A stretch of 64,000 nt of DNA from an uncultured Clostridia bacterium (GTDB lineage: Bacteria; Bacillota; Clostridia; Christensenellales; Borkfalkiaceae). The stretch covers positions 62,001 through 126,000 of the forward strand of contig CANREF010000001.1 of assembly GCA_947629575.1 (NCBI GenBank), in the 5' to 3' direction. The notes below the pieces were generated by a model. It did no database searches, was not told the DNA's origin, and worked only from the letters and a program-made list of their open reading frames with translations. This document shows, piece by piece, positions 22,334-31,030 of this stretch; position 1 is the first letter of the stretch, and each line of letters begins with the position of its first letter. Both the position numbers and the translations under genes were made by a program.

Positions 22334-22341
22334 CGAACGTA

Positions 22342-22379
22342 TGCAAAAACGGGACGCCGACGGGCGTCCCGTTTTTGCA
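22342..22379 (+). terminator. Terminator after the spoIIQ-like gene
   Basis: A 17-bp stem (22342-22358 with 22363-22379) whose 3' arm contains GTTTTTGCA, starting 9 bases after the stop codon. Confidence 0.8.
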
Positions 22380-22422
22380 CGGAAAAATTTTTTCGGAAAT
22401 TGGGGAAAGTGCTCTGCGGGGG

Positions 22423-22451
22423 TTGCCTTTTGCGGAAAAAAATGGTATAAT
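22423..22451 (+). promoter_or_regulatory. Promoter for the DUF4011 helicase gene
   Basis: TTGCCT (22423-22428), 17 bases, TATAAT (22446-22451), 54 bases before the ATG. Confidence 0.75.
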
Positions 22452-22505
22452 CGTAAGACGGAAAAAACTTTCGGTCGCGCGGAGCTCTTCCGCGCAGGTG
22501 GAGTT

Positions 22506-25500
22506 ATGGCAGGCAGAACAAAGCTCAAAAACAGCATACGGGAAAAAATTTCGCTCGCAGTCGTCCCCCCGAAGTACGTGGGCTATCTCGACTGCGTTCT
22601 CCGCACGCCCATCACCTTCCGCGTCACGAACGGATGCGAGGAGGAGTTGGCGCTGAGGCTTGTTCTGCAGGACGGCAAGGGTCTTTTCATCCCCTACGAA
22701 AATCGCTTTTCCGCTCCCTTTGAAAAGACGGTGGAAGTTTCGGCGGAGGGAATCCTTTCCCCCCTCTTTCTCGCAGATCTGGAAGAGCCCACTCCCGTCA
22801 CGGCGGAAGCGATCCTCCTTTCGGAGGGCGGGGAAGTGGGCAGAGCTCAGGCGGAGATCGTCTGTCTGCCCTTCGACTATTGGGAGGGGCTCTCGGGAAA
22901 TGCCGAACGCCTCGCCTGCTTTGTCCGCCCGCGGCTCGCGGAGTGTTCCCGAACGCTCGAGGACGCGGGCAAACGGCTGAAGAAATGGAGCGAGACCGCC
23001 GAGATCTACGGCTATGCCGGCGCGGACAAAAACACCATTCGTCTCACGCTCGCCGCCCTGTTTGCAAGCGTAAAGGCGAAAGACCCCGAGCGGGAGGAGG
23101 GTGCGCTTTCCTCGCCCGTCCGCGCCTTTTCGCCCGTTTTCCCCAAAGAGAGGAAGACGACGCCGCTCGCGCTCGCCCTGCACGTTGCGGCCTGTCTCGA
23201 ACAGGCGCAGCTCGATCCCGTCATCGCCGTCGGAAAGGGGGGAGTGGGCGTCGGAACGTGGCTGTATGAAAGCTGTTTCCCCGACCCCGTGACCGACGAC
23301 TGCGAAACGGTGGAGAAATTCATCTCGGACGGGATCAACAATCTTGCCTTTTTCGACGCGGAGGACCTCTTCTCCGCCCGCAATCTCTCCTTCACCCTCT
23401 CGGGAAAGCACTTTGCCGAAAAGCTGAAGGAGGGCTACTTTGAATATTTCATCGACATCCGCCGCTGCCGTATCGCGGGGATGCCCGTGCTTCCGCTCAA
23501 GGAAAAGGGATTGCACGGCGCAGAACTCGTGGGCGAGGCGGAGATGTCTTTCGACAGCGCGCCCGCACCTCTGCCCGCACTTCATAAACCCGAGGCGGAA
23601 AAGCAGACGCGCAACAAGATCTGGGAGCGCAGATTGCTCGATCTGTCCGCGCGGAACACGTTGCTCGTCTTCGCGGGGAAGAATGCGCTGCATCTGCGCG
23701 CGGGAGACCCCGACGCCCTTTTGCGGGGACTTCTCGACGGGGAGGAATACAAGCTCTCCGACGCTCCCACGCAGCCCCTCTTCGGGGTAAAGATGAGTTC
23801 CGCACAAAGAGAGCTCTGCGAGCTCGAACGCAAAAGCGGGCTCGTCCGCGCCTATGCGCAGGGAGAGGAGCTTTCCGAGACCGCCCGCCTTCTGCAGCGC
23901 AAGAACAGGGAGGCGGATGAGGAATCGGGCGCAAAACTTCTCTATCTTGCGTTCGGATTTTTGCGTTACGTCTCCAAGGAAGACGGCGCTCCCCGCTATG
24001 CGCCTCTCGTCCTTCTGCCCGTCGATCTCGTGCGGGCAAAGGGGAACGAAGATTTCTCTCTCCGTGCCGCAGAGCGCGAATATTTTGTCAACGCTACTCT
24101 TCTCGAACTTCTCAAGCAGGAATTCAACATCGATATCCTTGGGCTGGGCGGAGACGTCTCCGCACTGAAGGCGACGGAGATCTGCGCCATGGTGCTTGCC
24201 GAGGTCGCGGGCATGAAGGGCTGGACGGTGATCAACGAAGTCTACCTCGCCGCATTCTCCTTCCGCCGCTATCTCATGTGGCGGGATCTGCACGCCCATT
24301 TCGACGATCTGAAGTCCAACGCGCTCTTCAAAGCGCTCCTCAAAGGACGTGCGGAGCGCGCCCCCCTGCCCGCCTTCAAGGAGGAAGACGAGGGAGACCC
24401 TGCTGGAACGCTCACCCCGCTCCCCGCAGACAGTTCCCAATATGCCGCTATCGCGCTCTCCCGAACGGGAGCGAGCTTTGTTCTGCACGGCCCTCCCGGA
24501 ACGGGAAAGAGCCAGACGATCACCAATATCATCGCCAACGCCCTCGAGGACGGGAAGCGGGTGCTCTTCATCGCCGAAAAGAAGGCGGCGCTCGACGTCG
24601 TAAAGAAACGGCTCGACGCGATCGGCATCGGGGAGTTCTGCCTCGAGCTGCATTCCGACAAGGCGGACAAGAACAGTTGCGTCAAGCGCTTGGAGGATAC
24701 CGCCGCCCTTGCGGGAGGGGAACACACGGGAGATTTCAACCGCTGTGCGGAGGAGATCGGCTCGCTTCGGGGAGAACTTCTGCGCCCCATGCGCGCTCTG
24801 CACAAGAAGCGCCGTCTCGGCATTTCCGTCTATCAGGCGATCTTGCTCTACCTCAAAAACAAGGACGCTCCCGACGTCATGGACATCGAAAGCGGATTTT
24901 ACGATACCCTCAGCGAGCGCAAGCTCGCCGACTGCAAGATGCGCATCCTCTCGGCTGCGGCAGCCGCCAAGGAATGCGGCGGCGTATTCCGCTCTCCCTT
25001 CGAGAACGTCAACCTCACCGAGTATTCCTCCGACCTTCGCGATAAACTCTACTGCGCTTCGGAAGTTCTGCTCGCGGAGATCAGACACCTGCGCGCTTTC
25101 TTGGGGTTGTTCCTCGAATTTTATCGTCAAAAGATCTCGACGCTTACGCCGAAAAAGCTCGAAAATTTATGTACGGTCATAAAAAATCTGAACAGCGGGC
25201 TCTATTCCGCCTATTTTTCGGGCGTGACGGAGGAGCAATTCACCGCCTTCTTCAACGCCAACCGCAGGCTGGATGAACTGCTCGTGTTCTATAACCGCCA
25301 TTTCCGCGTATTCGTAGAACCCGACCAATGCGGGGAGATACGCCGCGCCCTCGAAAACGGGGACATCCGCACTTCCAAGGCGGCGGTCTCTGCTGCGAAA
25401 AAGCTGTCCCGTGCCGCCCTTCATCCCTTGACGGGGGAGGATACGGCAAAATTTTTGCAGGTCGTCGTGGATATCTGTTCCTGCATGGAACAGATCTCGG

Positions 25501-28085
25501 CAGTCCCCTTGGCGGCGAATTTCCTCGACCGTAGCGGACGGGTCGTCTTCCGCCGCAGGGCGGAATATCTCACGCCGCTGTACCGTCTGCACGATCTGTG
25601 CAGGGAGACCTTCCTCGATTTCCGTCCCGACGCCTTCAACGGGATGTGTATCCGCGCGCAGAGCGGCTACACCGCGCCCGTACTCGAGGGCTTTTTGCGG
25701 GCGGCGGAGGCGTTTTCGCAGGCGCGCACCGAATTTCTCGCCGTCACGAACGCCAAGAGGGAACGCTTTGCGCAGGAGGACGTTCTCGACGACTATTCCG
25801 CCAAGGCGAGCGCCCTCATCGACAACATCGACCTGCTCGCGAATTGGTGTATGTATCGCAAAACGGGCGAACGGCTCAAGGAATTGGGCTGCAGTTTTGT
25901 GACGGACGCCCTCGAGAGCGGCAAGCTCACGGGGGAGAACGTGCTCGCGGGCTTTGAAAAGAACGTCTATAAAAACTTCCTCGAGATCAATCTTCCCTCC
26001 GACCCCGAACTTTCGCGGCTCACGGCGGGCACGCTCGAGGACACGGTGGAAAAATTCCGCGCCGCCACGGAGGAATTCACCCGTCTCACGCGGGAGAAGA
26101 TCAGGCTCGACCTCATCTCCCGCCTTCCCGAACCGGACGGGGAGGGAAGCCTCGCGGTGGAGACGGCCGCCCTGAAAAGGCTCTCCAAGAGCAATTTGCG
26201 GGGAATGGGGCTGAGGGGGCTGTTCGCGGAGATCCCCGAACTTTTGGGTCGGCTCGCGCCCTGTCTGCTCATGAGCCCCTCCACAGCGGCGCAATATCTG
26301 CAGCCGCAGGCAGATCTATACGATCTCGTCATCTTCGACGAGGCGTCCCAAATGACCACGGCGGAGGCGGTGGGGTGCATCGCCCGCGCCAAGTCTGCCA
26401 TCGTCGTCGGCGATCCCCGCCAGCTCCCCCCGACTTCCTTCTTCCGCGCCGATCATGTGGATGAAGACAATCTCGAAAACGAAGATCTCGAGAGCATTCT
26501 CGACGACTGTCTTGCCCTCGGAATGCCCGAACGTCATCTCCTCTGGCACTACAGGAGCAAACACGAGAGCCTCATTGCCTTTTCCAACGGCATGTATTAC
26601 GACAACATGCTCTGCACCTTCCCTTCGCCCGATTCCCTCAAGAGCCGCGTCAGGCTCGTGCAGGTGGAGGGGAGCTACGACCGCGGCTTTACCAAGCGGA
26701 ACAAGAGGGAGGCGGAGGCGCTCGTGGGCGAGGTCGTCCGCCGTCTCAAAGACCCCGTCTTGTCCCGTTCGAGCATCGGGGTCGTCACCTTCTCGGGTGC
26801 GCAGCAGAGCTTCGTGGAAAGGCTGCTCTCGCAGGAATTGGCAAAGCAGAAGCTCGAGAGCGTCGCCTATGACCGCGACGAACCTCTGTTCGTCAAGAAT
26901 CTGGAGAACGTGCAGGGGGACGAGAGGGACGTCGTTCTGTTCTCGGTGTGTTACGGACCCGACCCGTCGGGGCGGATCTCCCTCAATTTCGGCCCTCTCA
27001 ATCAGGCGGGCGGTTGGCGGCGGCTGAACGTCGCCGTCTCCCGCGCAAGGGAGGAGATGATCGTCTTTTCCACGATGACCGCGGGCATGATCGACCTTTC
27101 CAAGACCTCTTCCAAGGGCGTTGCGGGGCTCAAGGCCTTCCTCGATTACGCGGAACGGGGCAAACTTCCCGTCCGCTCGGGCGCGGTCAAGGAGGGCGTG
27201 GGCATCGGCAGGTATCTTGCCGCCGAACTCAAGGGCTACGGCTACGATTGCCGCGTGGACGTCGGCGCTTCCGACTTCAAGATCGACGTTGCCGTTGTCG
27301 ATCCCGCCGACCCGCAGGAATTCCTGCTCGCGATCCTCTTCGACGGCACGGACAAATTTTCGGTCAAAGACAGGAACGTATTGCAGATACAGACCCTCAA
27401 ACGGGCGAATTGGAACGTTGCGCGCGTCAACTGCGTCAATTATTACAACAATCCGAAGCGGGAAGTCAAGCGGATCAAGGATATGCTCGACAAGCTCACG
27501 GGCGCAGAGAAGAAGAGCGGCGCTTCCCTCGCGCGGTATGCACGGGTCTATCGCGCCGTCAAGACGGAGGGCGCGGAGATCTCCGCCTTCGTCACCTGCG
27601 GGGAGAACGACGGGGCGATCGCGGCGCGGCTCAAGGAGATCGTTGCCGCCGAAGAGCCCATTTCCCGCAATTTCCTGAAGACCCGCTGTCTCGCTACCTT
27701 CGGCATCCTCAAGTCGGGAGCGCGCGTACTCGCAAAGCTCGATTTCCTCATCGACGGCTGTAAATTCCGCATGGAACGGGTAGGCGGGACGGAGTACTTC
27801 TACAAGAACGACCGCGCGCTGCGGATCGGGCGCTTCCGCACCGACGAGAGCGGACTGCGCAGGGCGGCGGAAGACTTCACCCCCTTCGAGACGGTCTCCC
27901 TCATCAAGGCGCTCCTCGAGGAGCGCGTGAGCGTCTATCTCGACGAACTCGGTCTGCTCGTCTGCAGTCTTTATAAAGTGCGCCCGAGCGAGCGGTTCAA
28001 CGGCTTTATCCGCGAATGCGTCGCATTCGGGGAGCAGAAGGGAATTCTCGTGCGCTCCGTTTCCGACCGCATTTCGCTTGCATAA
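22506..28085 (+). CDS. Giant DUF4011 - SF1 helicase - Vsr-like - DUF3320 protein
   Basis: An 1859-residue cytoplasmic protein, the largest in the window. Order: an N-terminal beta-rich region (1-350), DUF4011 (RRLLDLSARNTLLVFAGKNA, about 365), a superfamily 1 helicase with Walker A GPPGTGKSQTI (about 661) and Walker B VIFDEASQMTTAEA (about 1275), a long helical insert between them, helicase motif V/VI segments (NVQGDERDVVLFS, RRLNVAVSRAREEM), a Vsr/MTES_1575-like domain (about 1560-1660) and DUF3320 (about 1700-1850). Proteins of this layout occur in defence islands and the DUF4011-helicase-Vsr type has been linked to phage resistance. The nuclease motif is altered: where relatives have IECDG this one has ILFDG. 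GGTGGAG precedes the ATG. comEC follows after 12 bases. Confidence 0.85.
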   Translation: MAGRTKLKNSIREKISLAVVPPKYVGYLDCVLRTPITFRVTNGCEEELALRLVLQDGKGLFIPYENRFSAPFEKTVEVSAEGILSPLFLADLEEPTPVTAEAILLSEGGEVGRAQAEIVCLPFDYWEGLSGNAERLACFVRPRLAECSRTLEDAGKRLKKWSETAEIYGYAGADKNTIRLTLAALFASVKAKDPEREEGALSSPVRAFSPVFPKERKTTPLALALHVAACLEQAQLDPVIAVGKGGVGVGTWLYESCFPDPVTDDCETVEKFISDGINNLAFFDAEDLFSARNLSFTLSGKHFAEKLKEGYFEYFIDIRRCRIAGMPVLPLKEKGLHGAELVGEAEMSFDSAPAPLPALHKPEAEKQTRNKIWERRLLDLSARNTLLVFAGKNALHLRAGDPDALLRGLLDGEEYKLSDAPTQPLFGVKMSSAQRELCELERKSGLVRAYAQGEELSETARLLQRKNREADEESGAKLLYLAFGFLRYVSKEDGAPRYAPLVLLPVDLVRAKGNEDFSLRAAEREYFVNATLLELLKQEFNIDILGLGGDVSALKATEICAMVLAEVAGMKGWTVINEVYLAAFSFRRYLMWRDLHAHFDDLKSNALFKALLKGRAERAPLPAFKEEDEGDPAGTLTPLPADSSQYAAIALSRTGASFVLHGPPGTGKSQTITNIIANALEDGKRVLFIAEKKAALDVVKKRLDAIGIGEFCLELHSDKADKNSCVKRLEDTAALAGGEHTGDFNRCAEEIGSLRGELLRPMRALHKKRRLGISVYQAILLYLKNKDAPDVMDIESGFYDTLSERKLADCKMRILSAAAAAKECGGVFRSPFENVNLTEYSSDLRDKLYCASEVLLAEIRHLRAFLGLFLEFYRQKISTLTPKKLENLCTVIKNLNSGLYSAYFSGVTEEQFTAFFNANRRLDELLVFYNRHFRVFVEPDQCGEIRRALENGDIRTSKAAVSAAKKLSRAALHPLTGEDTAKFLQVVVDICSCMEQISAVPLAANFLDRSGRVVFRRRAEYLTPLYRLHDLCRETFLDFRPDAFNGMCIRAQSGYTAPVLEGFLRAAEAFSQARTEFLAVTNAKRERFAQEDVLDDYSAKASALIDNIDLLANWCMYRKTGERLKELGCSFVTDALESGKLTGENVLAGFEKNVYKNFLEINLPSDPELSRLTAGTLEDTVEKFRAATEEFTRLTREKIRLDLISRLPEPDGEGSLAVETAALKRLSKSNLRGMGLRGLFAEIPELLGRLAPCLLMSPSTAAQYLQPQADLYDLVIFDEASQMTTAEAVGCIARAKSAIVVGDPRQLPPTSFFRADHVDEDNLENEDLESILDDCLALGMPERHLLWHYRSKHESLIAFSNGMYYDNMLCTFPSPDSLKSRVRLVQVEGSYDRGFTKRNKREAEALVGEVVRRLKDPVLSRSSIGVVTFSGAQQSFVERLLSQELAKQKLESVAYDRDEPLFVKNLENVQGDERDVVLFSVCYGPDPSGRISLNFGPLNQAGGWRRLNVAVSRAREEMIVFSTMTAGMIDLSKTSSKGVAGLKAFLDYAERGKLPVRSGAVKEGVGIGRYLAAELKGYGYDCRVDVGASDFKIDVAVVDPADPQEFLLAILFDGTDKFSVKDRNVLQIQTLKRANWNVARVNCVNYYNNPKREVKRIKDMLDKLTGAEKKSGASLARYARVYRAVKTEGAEISAFVTCGENDGAIAARLKEIVAAEEPISRNFLKTRCLATFGILKSGARVLAKLDFLIDGCKFRMERVGGTEYFYKNDRALRIGRFRTDESGLRRAAEDFTPFETVSLIKALLEERVSVYLDELGLLVCSLYKVRPSERFNGFIRECVAFGEQKGILVRSVSDRISLA

Positions 28086-28097
28086 CGAGGAAATGAA

Positions 28098-30050
28098 ATG
28101 GACGGCGAAAGAAGAAAAACGCGCGTCAATTTTCGCATCCTGCTCTTTTGCGCGTTGGGGATCGCCTTCGGCATCTTTCTCTATGGGAAGATCCGCTTCG
28201 GCGGGCTGCTCCCCTCCGATTTTCTCTTTCCCGCCCTCTTTGCGGGCTTTGCCCTCATTCCCTTCTCATGGAAGCGGCTCTGCGCCGTTTTGCTTACCGT
28301 TCTCTGTTTTGCGGGCTTCGGCGTCCTCTCCATTCATCTCTACACCGAGCGGTTCGACGCCACGTTGCCCGCGGGGGAATACCGCCTGTCGGGGACGGTC
28401 GTCTCCGTCTCCCGCCACCGCGGCTATTCGGTCATCGTGCTCGACGATTTGGCGGCGGACGGCGGGGAGATCGGCGGGAAGTGCACCATTCTCCTTCCGG
28501 ACACCTCTCTCCGCCCCGCGGATATCATCCTTTTCGACGCGGAACTCGAGGGCGTCGATCCCGACAAGATCTCCTTTGACGGATATACGCAGAATTTATT
28601 CTCCAAGGACATCCGCTATAAGGGGACGGGCGGCGGGATCGAACTCATAAGGCGGTCGAAAGATCCCTTCCTTCGGCTGAACGGCGCTCTCTTCGACTGC
28701 CTCCATTCCCACCTCGAGACGGACGAGGCGGACGTCGCGTATGCGCTGCTCACGGGCAATTCGGGCGGCATGGACGAAGACTTGGGAGACGTTGCGCGGC
28801 GGGGCGGGATCGCCCACATCTTTGCGGTGAGCGGACTGCATATCGGAATTCTCTACGGCGCGGTGTATGCCGTCTGCGGTTTTCTCAAGAAATATCGCTT
28901 TCTCCCCGCGCTCGGCATCGCCCTCTTATACGCGGGCGTATGCGGATTTACCGTATCCGCACTGCGCGCCGTGCTCATGTGCGGGGCTATCGGCACCGTG
29001 CGCGCCTTGGGCAGGAAGCATGACTTTTTGAACGCGATCTCCCTTGCGGCGATCCCCATTCTGCTGTTTCTCCCCGGGCAATGGTATTCGGCGGGAATGA
29101 AGCTCTCCTTCGGAGCATGTCTCGGGCTCGCCCTCTTCGGGGGCGATCTCACCCGATTGTTCACCCGTATGCGAATTCCGCGTATCCTGCGCGAATACCT
29201 TGCGGCAAATCTTGCCGTGCAGCTCTTCACCTTTCCCATTCTGATGGAAGCCTTCGGGTTTGTTTCGGTTTGGGGAACGCTCTGCAATTTCTTTCTCATC
29301 CCCCTCCTTCCCGTGCTCTTTTTGGGAACGCTCGCGTTTTCTCTTTTGTCCCTCGTCATCCCGCCCGCGGCGGGGATCTTCATGCTCTTTCCCGAAGGGA
29401 TGTTTTCCGCCTTCGTCTATCTCATTTCCCTCACCGATCTCTCCCTCGTTCTCTCGGGATTTGCGCTCGGGACGGGCGGAACGCTCTATCTTATCGGGAC
29501 GGTCGCCCTCTCTTCCCGCTTCCGTCTCCATCCAAAGTCCCGCGGCATTGCCGCCTCGGCGCTTGCAGTGCTCTTCGTCCTCATCGTTACATTCGGGAAC
29601 GTCGTCGTTTCTGGAGCACGTATCGACGTATTTTCTCTCGACGGGGAATCGCTCGCCCTCGTGCGGACGGGCGGGGAGAGCGTGCTCGTCATCGACGGCG
29701 ACGTCGATGTGAGAGACTGCGAGGACTTCCTGCGCCGCACCTTTGGCGGCAGGTTGGACGCCGTAGTCGTGCTCTCCGAGGAAGAGCTTGCGGGGATCAA
29801 CGTGGCATGTTTTCTCAATACGGATACCGTTCGCCACCGCGACGAGATCGAGACGGGGCTTCAAAACACCGAAGTCCGCTTCGGCGAGATCTTCTCGGTC
29901 GGCGCTCTCTCCTTCCGCTATGAGAACAGGGAAAAGCTCACCCTTCTCTTCGACGGGCGGACGGTGGAATTCGACTTCGGGCATCCGCCCGCACTGGGAG
30001 CCGATCTGTTTATCGGCGGCGCGGACGGGAAATACCGCTATTATCTGTGA
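28098..30050 (+). CDS. comEC: ComEC/Rec2-family DNA uptake channel protein
   Basis: A 650-residue polytopic membrane protein. The N terminus has two or three membrane segments and a DUF4131-type soluble part (residues 90-190); the Competence core begins near residue 235 with GIAHIFAVSGLHIGILYG, the family signature, and has about eight further membrane segments. The C terminus (about 515-650) aligns in place with the metallo-beta-lactamase domain but lacks an HxHxDH motif, so it is probably non-catalytic. ComEC carries single-stranded DNA across the membrane in transformation; no other com gene is in the window. GAGGAAATGAA precedes the ATG. holA follows, a common clostridial order. Confidence 0.87.
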   Translation: MDGERRKTRVNFRILLFCALGIAFGIFLYGKIRFGGLLPSDFLFPALFAGFALIPFSWKRLCAVLLTVLCFAGFGVLSIHLYTERFDATLPAGEYRLSGTVVSVSRHRGYSVIVLDDLAADGGEIGGKCTILLPDTSLRPADIILFDAELEGVDPDKISFDGYTQNLFSKDIRYKGTGGGIELIRRSKDPFLRLNGALFDCLHSHLETDEADVAYALLTGNSGGMDEDLGDVARRGGIAHIFAVSGLHIGILYGAVYAVCGFLKKYRFLPALGIALLYAGVCGFTVSALRAVLMCGAIGTVRALGRKHDFLNAISLAAIPILLFLPGQWYSAGMKLSFGACLGLALFGGDLTRLFTRMRIPRILREYLAANLAVQLFTFPILMEAFGFVSVWGTLCNFFLIPLLPVLFLGTLAFSLLSLVIPPAAGIFMLFPEGMFSAFVYLISLTDLSLVLSGFALGTGGTLYLIGTVALSSRFRLHPKSRGIAASALAVLFVLIVTFGNVVVSGARIDVFSLDGESLALVRTGGESVLVIDGDVDVRDCEDFLRRTFGGRLDAVVVLSEEELAGINVACFLNTDTVRHRDEIETGLQNTEVRFGEIFSVGALSFRYENREKLTLLFDGRTVEFDFGHPPALGADLFIGGADGKYRYYL

Positions 30051-30058
30051 GGCCGCTC

Positions 30059-31030
30059 ATGAAATTTACCGAACTTGCAAAGCAACTGAAGGAGAGCGTC
30101 GCGCCCTTCTACCTCGTCGAGGGGGAGGAGGGCTATTTCCGCGACCATGCCGTAAGGAGCATCCGTTCGGCGTGCAACATCTCGCAGCCCCTGTTCAACG
30201 ACGTCCGCCTCGAAGGGGAGGATGTGAAGGGGACTTCTCTTGCGAGCAAGCTCTATGCCCTCCCTCTCTTCGATGAAAAACGGCTCGTGCGGGTGTACGA
30301 TTTCTATCCCACCGAGCGCGAATGGGAAAACGATCTCAAACCGTATGCGGAATCGCCCTGTCCCACGACGGTGCTCGTCATTGTCAACGCCGGGAAGAAG
30401 GGCGGAGTGGACCTCAGGCGCAAGAAGGGGGTCGTCTATGTGGACTGTTCGCGGGAAGACAGGGAAATGCTCTCCCGCTGGCTCTTCAATCTCATGCGGA
30501 AGGAGGGCTTGAATGCGGATACGGAGAGCGTGGAGCGCATGGTGGACTACTGCGGACAGGACGCGGCGAGGCTGAAACAGGAGACGGACAAACTGAAATT
30601 CCTCCTCGGCGAGGGGGGGAAGGTCACTCCCGCCGTCGTGGAGGAGAATGTCGCCAAAGACGTCGAATACAAGCTGTACGAGCTCACGCAGGCGGCGTCG
30701 GGGCGCAACTTTACGCGCTTTTCGGAGATACTCGACGACCTTCTCGTGAAGGGCTTCGACGAGAACGCCGTGCTCTCCTCCCTCGTCTCCCATTTCAAAA
30801 GTCTCACGGAGATCTCCCGCATGAAGGGCTCGGACGAAGAGATCGGCAAGGTCATCGGGATGCATCCCTACGGCGTAAAGCGGAGCAGGGAGACGGTGAG
30901 GCGGATGGGCGCGGAACGGGCGGAGGAACTCTATCAAAGTCTCTATCGTTTGCTCGCGGGAATGCGCGGGGGGCTCTACCTCAAAACGGGGGCGCTGAAT
31001 GCGGCGATCGCGAAAATCTTCTTCGGATAG
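30059..31030 (+). CDS. holA: DNA polymerase III subunit delta
   Basis: A 323-residue clamp-loader delta subunit, which opens the sliding clamp. Features are the N-terminal AAA-like fold with FYLVEGEEGYFRDHAVRSI, the middle DRKMLSRW-like region (SREDREMLSRWLFNLMRK), KQETDKLKFLLGEGGKVTPAVVEENV, and the C-terminal collar domain (GVKRSRETVRRM, LYQSLYRLLAGMRGGLYLKTGALNAAIAKIFFG). ATG 30059 is preferred; a GTG at 30047 overlapping the comEC stop is possible. It ends 55 bases before the next promoter region. Confidence 0.92.
   Translation: MKFTELAKQLKESVAPFYLVEGEEGYFRDHAVRSIRSACNISQPLFNDVRLEGEDVKGTSLASKLYALPLFDEKRLVRVYDFYPTEREWENDLKPYAESPCPTTVLVIVNAGKKGGVDLRRKKGVVYVDCSREDREMLSRWLFNLMRKEGLNADTESVERMVDYCGQDAARLKQETDKLKFLLGEGGKVTPAVVEENVAKDVEYKLYELTQAASGRNFTRFSEILDDLLVKGFDENAVLSSLVSHFKSLTEISRMKGSDEEIGKVIGMHPYGVKRSRETVRRMGAERAEELYQSLYRLLAGMRGGLYLKTGALNAAIAKIFFG

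Follow-up and report, generated by a model that had tools for sequence, protein, structure and literature searches.

A core DUF4011-helicase giant with two erased catalytic sites in a genus of Clostridia

What does a giant protein of a kind known from defence genes do once the motif of its nuclease has changed? The question is raised by a single gene in the window, by which we mean the whole 64,000-nucleotide stretch of clostridial DNA analysed here. A sequence-only reading had described the product as a DUF4011-helicase-Vsr-DUF3320 giant in which ILFDG takes the place of the usual IECDG, and had weighed a single-gene phage defence, the processing of incoming DNA, and action without cutting DNA. 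We consider in turn the gene and its relatives, its distribution and inheritance, the state of its catalytic sites, and the roles that these leave to it.

The gene, its domains and its relatives

The giant occupies an open frame on the forward strand that spans 22341-28085, with its start at the ATG at 22506 (Table 1). An SD-like AGGTGGAG stands just 5' of this ATG, and the sigma-70-like promoter upstream is of a kind expected 0.1 times per region in shuffled sequence. The hairpin that follows the M23 peptidase gene is stable (MFE -35.4 kcal/mol, z -7.5, with 22340-22395 folded), and a terminator pattern scan reported none there. With the promoter-like site, the SD-like sequence and the hairpin all in place, the predicted start is well supported. 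No RNA families or tRNAs were found in a search of the 64-kb window.

Table 1. Features of the giant gene and its surroundings (window positions; residue numbers are those of the giant)
Feature	Position	Strand	Basis or remark
Strong hairpin, terminator-like by position, between M23 peptidase gene (upstream) and giant	22342..22379	.	Folding
Sigma-70-like promoter TTGCCT-17-TATAAT, TG ahead of -10	22423..22451	+	10/12 consensus matches
Giant DUF4011-SF1 helicase-MTES_1575-wHTH protein	22506..28085	+	1859 aa; one open frame
Ig-like beta-sandwich, residues 15-120	22548..22865	+	Model block pLDDT 87-95; weak beta-sandwich matches
Transglutaminase-like domain, residues 165-345, Cys/His missing (220 = P, 246 = G)	22998..23540	+	Alignment with ProA-/Hhe-type proteins
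DUF4011, residues 376-536	23631..24113	+	Pfam, 107.2 bits
SF1 helicase start, Walker A GPPGTGKSQ (K668)	24429..24620	+	Pfam AAA_11
SF1 helicase later motifs FDEASQ, GDPRQLPPT, WHYRS, VQGDERD, NVAVSRAR	26226..27125	+	Pfam AAA_12 (1339-1522)
MTES_1575 (Vsr-like) nuclease domain, residues 1572-1660	27219..27485	+	Pfam PF18741, 56.1 bits, above gathering cut-off of 38.2
D1594 of KIDVAV (residues 1592-1597), retained	27285..27287	+	D in 96/98 genus genomes
ILFDG, residues 1610-1614; (I/V)ECDG in Hhe-type proteins	27333..27347	+	Alignments
Tandem winged helices (DUF3320 region), residues 1690-1859	27573..28082	+	C-terminal model; winged-helix fold matches
comEC, metallo-beta-lactamase domain not detected	28098..30050	+	650 aa; Competence domain; context only
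holA (DNA polymerase III delta)	30047..31030	+	DNA_pol3_delta_C, 35.4 bits; context only

That the layout is one known from defence-related genes is borne out by profile searches, in which the giant matches the PADLOC profiles PDC-S37 (E 1e-279) and Hhe (E 1e-135) and scores 1376.6 bits with NCBIfam ProA (NF058533). This last score lies under the curated threshold of 1500 bits, which makes the giant a relative of ProA and not a member; none of the 103 genus genomes reaches that threshold (best 1443.3). With NCBIfam Hhe (NF042953) the giant scores 662.9 bits, below a curated cut-off of 2000. No publication describing ProA (NF058533) came up in a literature search.

The helicase is of the SF1 Upf1-like type, with Walker A and B and motifs III-VI. 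At residues 1700-1741 DUF3320 (PF11784) scores 16.2 bits, below its gathering cut-off of 25, and a winged-helix fold is predicted there. In the C-terminal model (mean pLDDT 73) the tandem winged helices are confident and the nuclease part is weak (block pLDDT 32-77), and the best fold-search rows are winged helices, not Vsr. The weakly modelled nuclease part matches 3hrl, a putative endonuclease-like protein (Z 7.3, rmsd 4.0, 85 aligned), a match that may reflect only a common arrangement; a search with the N-terminal model returned only low-TM beta-sandwich matches. RAP domains, which have an REase-like fold and occur in RNA-binding proteins, are a precedent for such a fold binding RNA. A profile of the ex-nuclease domain has a RAP-domain protein as its best PDB match (E 0.011), a weak match in another context for which we claim no membership, and which hints weakly that the ex-nuclease fold may serve to bind nucleic acid.

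Among described systems, ProA (PADLOC PDC-S37) resembles the giant in domain order, in length and in having an intact helicase, and Hhe (PADLOC PDLC02194) in its DUF4011-SF1 helicase-Vsr-like-DUF3320 layout. Related HEPN-transglutaminase-SF1-Vsr-wHTH giants (MTES_1575) were described in 2013 (PMC3710099); they share transglutaminase-like, SF1 helicase, Vsr-like and winged-helix domains with the giant, which differs from them in its missing catalytic residues and in that no HEPN family is among its Pfam matches at E 1 or better.

Distribution, inheritance and neighbourhood

The genus of the window is probably Candidatus Gallimonas (Clostridia), and the same gene is found in a Candidatus Gallimonas merdigallinarum record. 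A ProA-family match was found in 102 of the 103 genus genomes, and in all 60 good ones (completeness of 90% or more, contamination of 5% or less), the sole genome without a match, G136, being 83% complete; no internal stops occur in the main genus matches listed. Cas1 is found in 12 and HsdR in 21 of the same 103 genomes. On these counts the gene is core in the genus, not accessory. Outside it the picture is different: ProA is sporadic in the phylum, with 7 of 398 genomes of an even sample above its cut-off, and of 396 genomes of the order 105 give a match at E 1e-60 or better. Among the sampled genomes of the window's own family the gene is present in genera g311, g313, g314 and g315, and missing from g312 (3/3) and g316 (1/1), so that it is not indispensable in those two.

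Comparison with rpoB (frames picked by a short motif and phmmer) points to mainly vertical inheritance. Over 25 genomes the distances of the two genes are weakly correlated (Mantel r 0.43, p 0.009) and 75% of quartets agree, and without four fast-evolving copies the agreement rises to r 0.82 (n 21, p 0.0001; 84% of quartets). Within the genus only, the corresponding values are r 0.09 (n 21, p 0.30) and, without the same four, r 0.55 (n 17, p 0.0012). Descent with rate variation would explain these figures best, with transfer of single copies as the alternative. The single-gene phage defence that the sequence-only reading held plausible finds no support in the form of an ordinary accessory gene, as the giant is core and mainly vertical in genomes where Cas1 and HsdR have a patchy distribution.

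Two copies from elsewhere deserve mention. A giant in another family (L175, G849:C18, family f19) shares 64% identity with that of the window and so is as near to it as members of the genus are, through either transfer or assembly contamination; and a contig labelled bacteriophage (L173, MT836269.1), which may be bacterial DNA, carries a ProA-type gene nearly identical to one that lies beside rpsA in B. finegoldii (L167).

The neighbours of the giant in the window are housekeeping genes (rng, rsmE, mtaB, HIT, M23, comEC, holA, cdaA and aspartate kinase), and its placement with comEC and holA is as the sequence-only reading had it, the start of comEC lying 12 bases downstream. Among 58 assessable loci of 60 in the genus, comEC is directly downstream in 25, trkH is downstream in 24, comEC is in opposite orientation in 6, and 3 have other arrangements; with at least three contexts, the giant or its neighbours must have moved. 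In family and order loci (L184-L199, 1.5-kb flanks scanned), comEC is directly downstream in 7 of 16. As for other competence functions, a search for a T2SSE/ComGA-type ATPase found none in the genome and was positive in 14 of 14 control genomes; a dprA-like gene is present below its family cut-off, and there is a weak ComEA-like match.

Catalytic sites, motor and selection

The loss of the acidic residue of IECDG is confirmed, and so is the retention of the Asp of KIDVAV. At sites 1611/1613/1624/1627 Hhe-type proteins carry E/D/D/R in 21 of 21 rows, a pattern from which the giant departs with L/D/N/Q. It has company in this: in the ProA branch, as well as in the lineage of the window, a hydrophobic residue stands in for the Glu, D1613 stays and the Arg is mostly Gln. 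Site 1611 is M, I or L in seven of eight ProA-type rows, and the exception, L117, which retains Glu, groups among Hhe-type rows in the tree; five of the six proteins above the NCBI ProA cut-off that cover the site are already without Glu. Order rows are hydrophobic there in 41 of 41 (one genome, G786, being counted twice in the order table of residue counts and once in the tree counts), and L, I or V is found in 91 of the 98 genus genomes, out of 103, that cover the site. The other seven are all among the fast-evolving copies, a set of 12 genomes that we delimited by an identity of about 50% or below with the protein of the window, and their alignment at 1611 is ambiguous because rows read VLTD or ILTE there; automatic alignment of the 12 gives D in four, a gap in two and E in one.

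We placed the change on a tree of 51 rows (53 were chosen, and two dropped for too few filled columns), built from the DUF4011 and helicase columns only, with the nuclease columns excluded. The wide alignment left out L119, a copy of the window gene, as well as L118, L133 and L134-L141, which are truncated or too distant. Loss of the Glu is one change on this tree, where a branch of SH-aLRT 100 separates the 31 rows without it from the rest. As a single change on a nuclease-free tree, the altered motif is an old, single event common to the branch, and a private or sequencing change in the window is ruled out. Nor is an acidic residue supplied nearby to replace E1611, a check that the sequence-only reading had proposed, for D1594, D1613 and D1622 are also present in relatives that contain the Glu. 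To our knowledge, E. coli Vsr has no Glu at the aligned place.

A second site is altered in the N-terminal half, in a domain assigned as transglutaminase-like on the grounds of the alignment, of PMC3710099 and of one weak Transglut_core Pfam match in a homologue (14.8 bits). Both the Cys and the His are kept in 8 of 8 ProA-type rows, unlike in the giant, and Hhe-type rows likewise have them where the domain is covered (Cys in 6 of 6 such rows). In the giant P220 and G246 stand in their places. The Cys is found in none of 93 genus genomes and none of 43 order rows (one genome counted twice), the position varying among many residues; His is present at 246 in 10 of the 93, none of them with Cys at 220. 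The apparent loss of this Cys and His, and the extent of the nuclease substitution over the whole branch, go beyond what had been noticed from the window itself.

The helicase, by its conserved residues, is an intact motor throughout the genus. Nine of its residues (the K and S of Walker A, the D and E of DEAS, and residues of motifs III to VI) are invariant in 97-99 of the 97-99 genus genomes covering them, fast-evolving copies included, with K668 in 98 of 98.

Selection on the ex-nuclease domain is comparably strong. Mean pairwise identity among 76 slow full-length sequences of the genus is 74% in the nuclease segment, which ranks second to helicase 1B-2A (81%) and stands above the wHTH (61%) and DUF4011 (58%) segments. 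Nine close pairs give a pooled dN/dS of 0.060 (nuclease), 0.054 (motor) and 0.13 (wHTH region), every domain lying within 0.05-0.13. With a constraint close to that on the motor, the nuclease domain is not in decay, and to judge from these values it is kept for something.

Three further observations concern the same domains. The ex-nuclease domain ends in a strongly conserved genus motif, NCVNYYNNPKREVKRIK (27429-27479, residues 1642-1658), at the position of which Hhe- and ProA-type proteins have a different sequence, of the RIW..DW type. In G042, G005, G045 and G048, with end branches of 0.8-1.2, and in about eight more genus genomes the core giant evolves much faster, and these lineages have lost nuclease-loop residues while their helicase residues are invariant. 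Some genus genomes carry beside the core copy a second, Hhe-type giant (L070 and L071, in G041:C42 and G044:C106), with intact IECDG and YHSS and without the N-terminal transglutaminase region.

Possible roles of the giant

With about even confidence, we propose that the giant arose in the ProA line of defence giants, was recruited as a fixed gene, and works as an ATP-driven nucleic-acid translocase of the SF1 (Upf1/IGHMBP2-like) type. It would bind DNA or RNA through its winged helices and its ex-nuclease fold, move along the nucleic acid by ATP hydrolysis, and displace or remodel obstacles without cutting them, the conserved ex-nuclease serving as a binding or regulatory module. Both the non-cleaving mode of work and the recruitment away from classical defence are what we infer from sequence comparison. 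Of the options in the sequence-only reading, action without cutting DNA appears to fit best, with the Glu gone and no acid replacing it, though a nuclease with an unusual site can work and D1594, D1613, D1622 and R1623 are still conserved. As to the fixed role, the maintenance of genome or RNA seems probable, and likelier than a resident, non-cleaving block to phages, to which we would still give a considerable chance.

The strongest alternative is that the giant, though a fixed part of the genome, continues to act against phages and halts their DNA without cutting it, through translocation, stripping or signalling. Family membership (PADLOC PDC-S37/Hhe, NCBIfam ProA) argues for it, and loss of the Glu does not by itself mean loss of defence, because ProA-type proteins, most of those above the cut-off included, are already without it and are named anti-phage by NCBI. 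In Pseudomonas aeruginosa, moreover, PMC10250203 describes a defence hotspot that is flanked by a core DUF4011 gene in all isolates examined. We nevertheless think this alternative unlikely, if plausible, in view of the near-universal presence, slow evolution and housekeeping surroundings of the giant, features that set it apart from the Cas1 and HsdR of these genomes, and of the loss of a transglutaminase-like site that ProA keeps.

Clearly less probable is that the Vsr-like domain still cuts, by means of D1594, D1613 and other residues. The domain is under strong purifying selection, and D1594, D1613 and D1622 are conserved in 96, 97 and 91 of 98 genus genomes. Yet the loss of Glu was accompanied by the change of Arg to Gln, no new acid lies nearby, and the loop that bears YH in Hhe-type proteins is three residues shorter in the giant and has F there.

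Decay of a defence gene, suggested by the lost catalytic residues of two domains and by the faster copies of about 12 genomes, is very improbable and is refuted for most of the genus by intact frames among the genus matches listed, by motor residues invariant even in the fast copies, and by the low pooled dN/dS in every domain. Just as improbable, and rejected here, is the role in incoming DNA that the sequence-only reading had allowed, in which the giant would process DNA entering through ComEC: despite their adjacency in the window and in many genus loci, that adjacency is unconserved (trkH takes the place of comEC about as often, and comEC is divergent in six loci), the genome has no T2SSE-type ATPase, and its ComEC gave no metallo-beta-lactamase match in a domain search.

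To return to recruitment as a fixed translocase, we can tentatively sketch how it may have come about. A defence giant may have been disarmed in two steps, losing the nuclease Glu a single time, where the ProA branch begins, and the transglutaminase-like Cys and His in Clostridial lineages; its motor and nuclease-fold binding module would then have joined the machinery that permanently maintains the genome in a large gut genus, with the ex-nuclease as a dedicated reader of nucleic acid.

Catalogues list DUF4011 giants as defence systems that bear a nuclease. If the whole branch, including proteins above the ProA cut-off, is without the nuclease Glu, then cutting cannot be assumed as their mechanism, and simple point mutants can probe it. 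The genus itself offers some hundred natural instances in which a defence-type protein appears to have been made permanent, with two catalytic sites erased and the motor kept, and may thus be a useful case for the recruitment of immune genes to other work.
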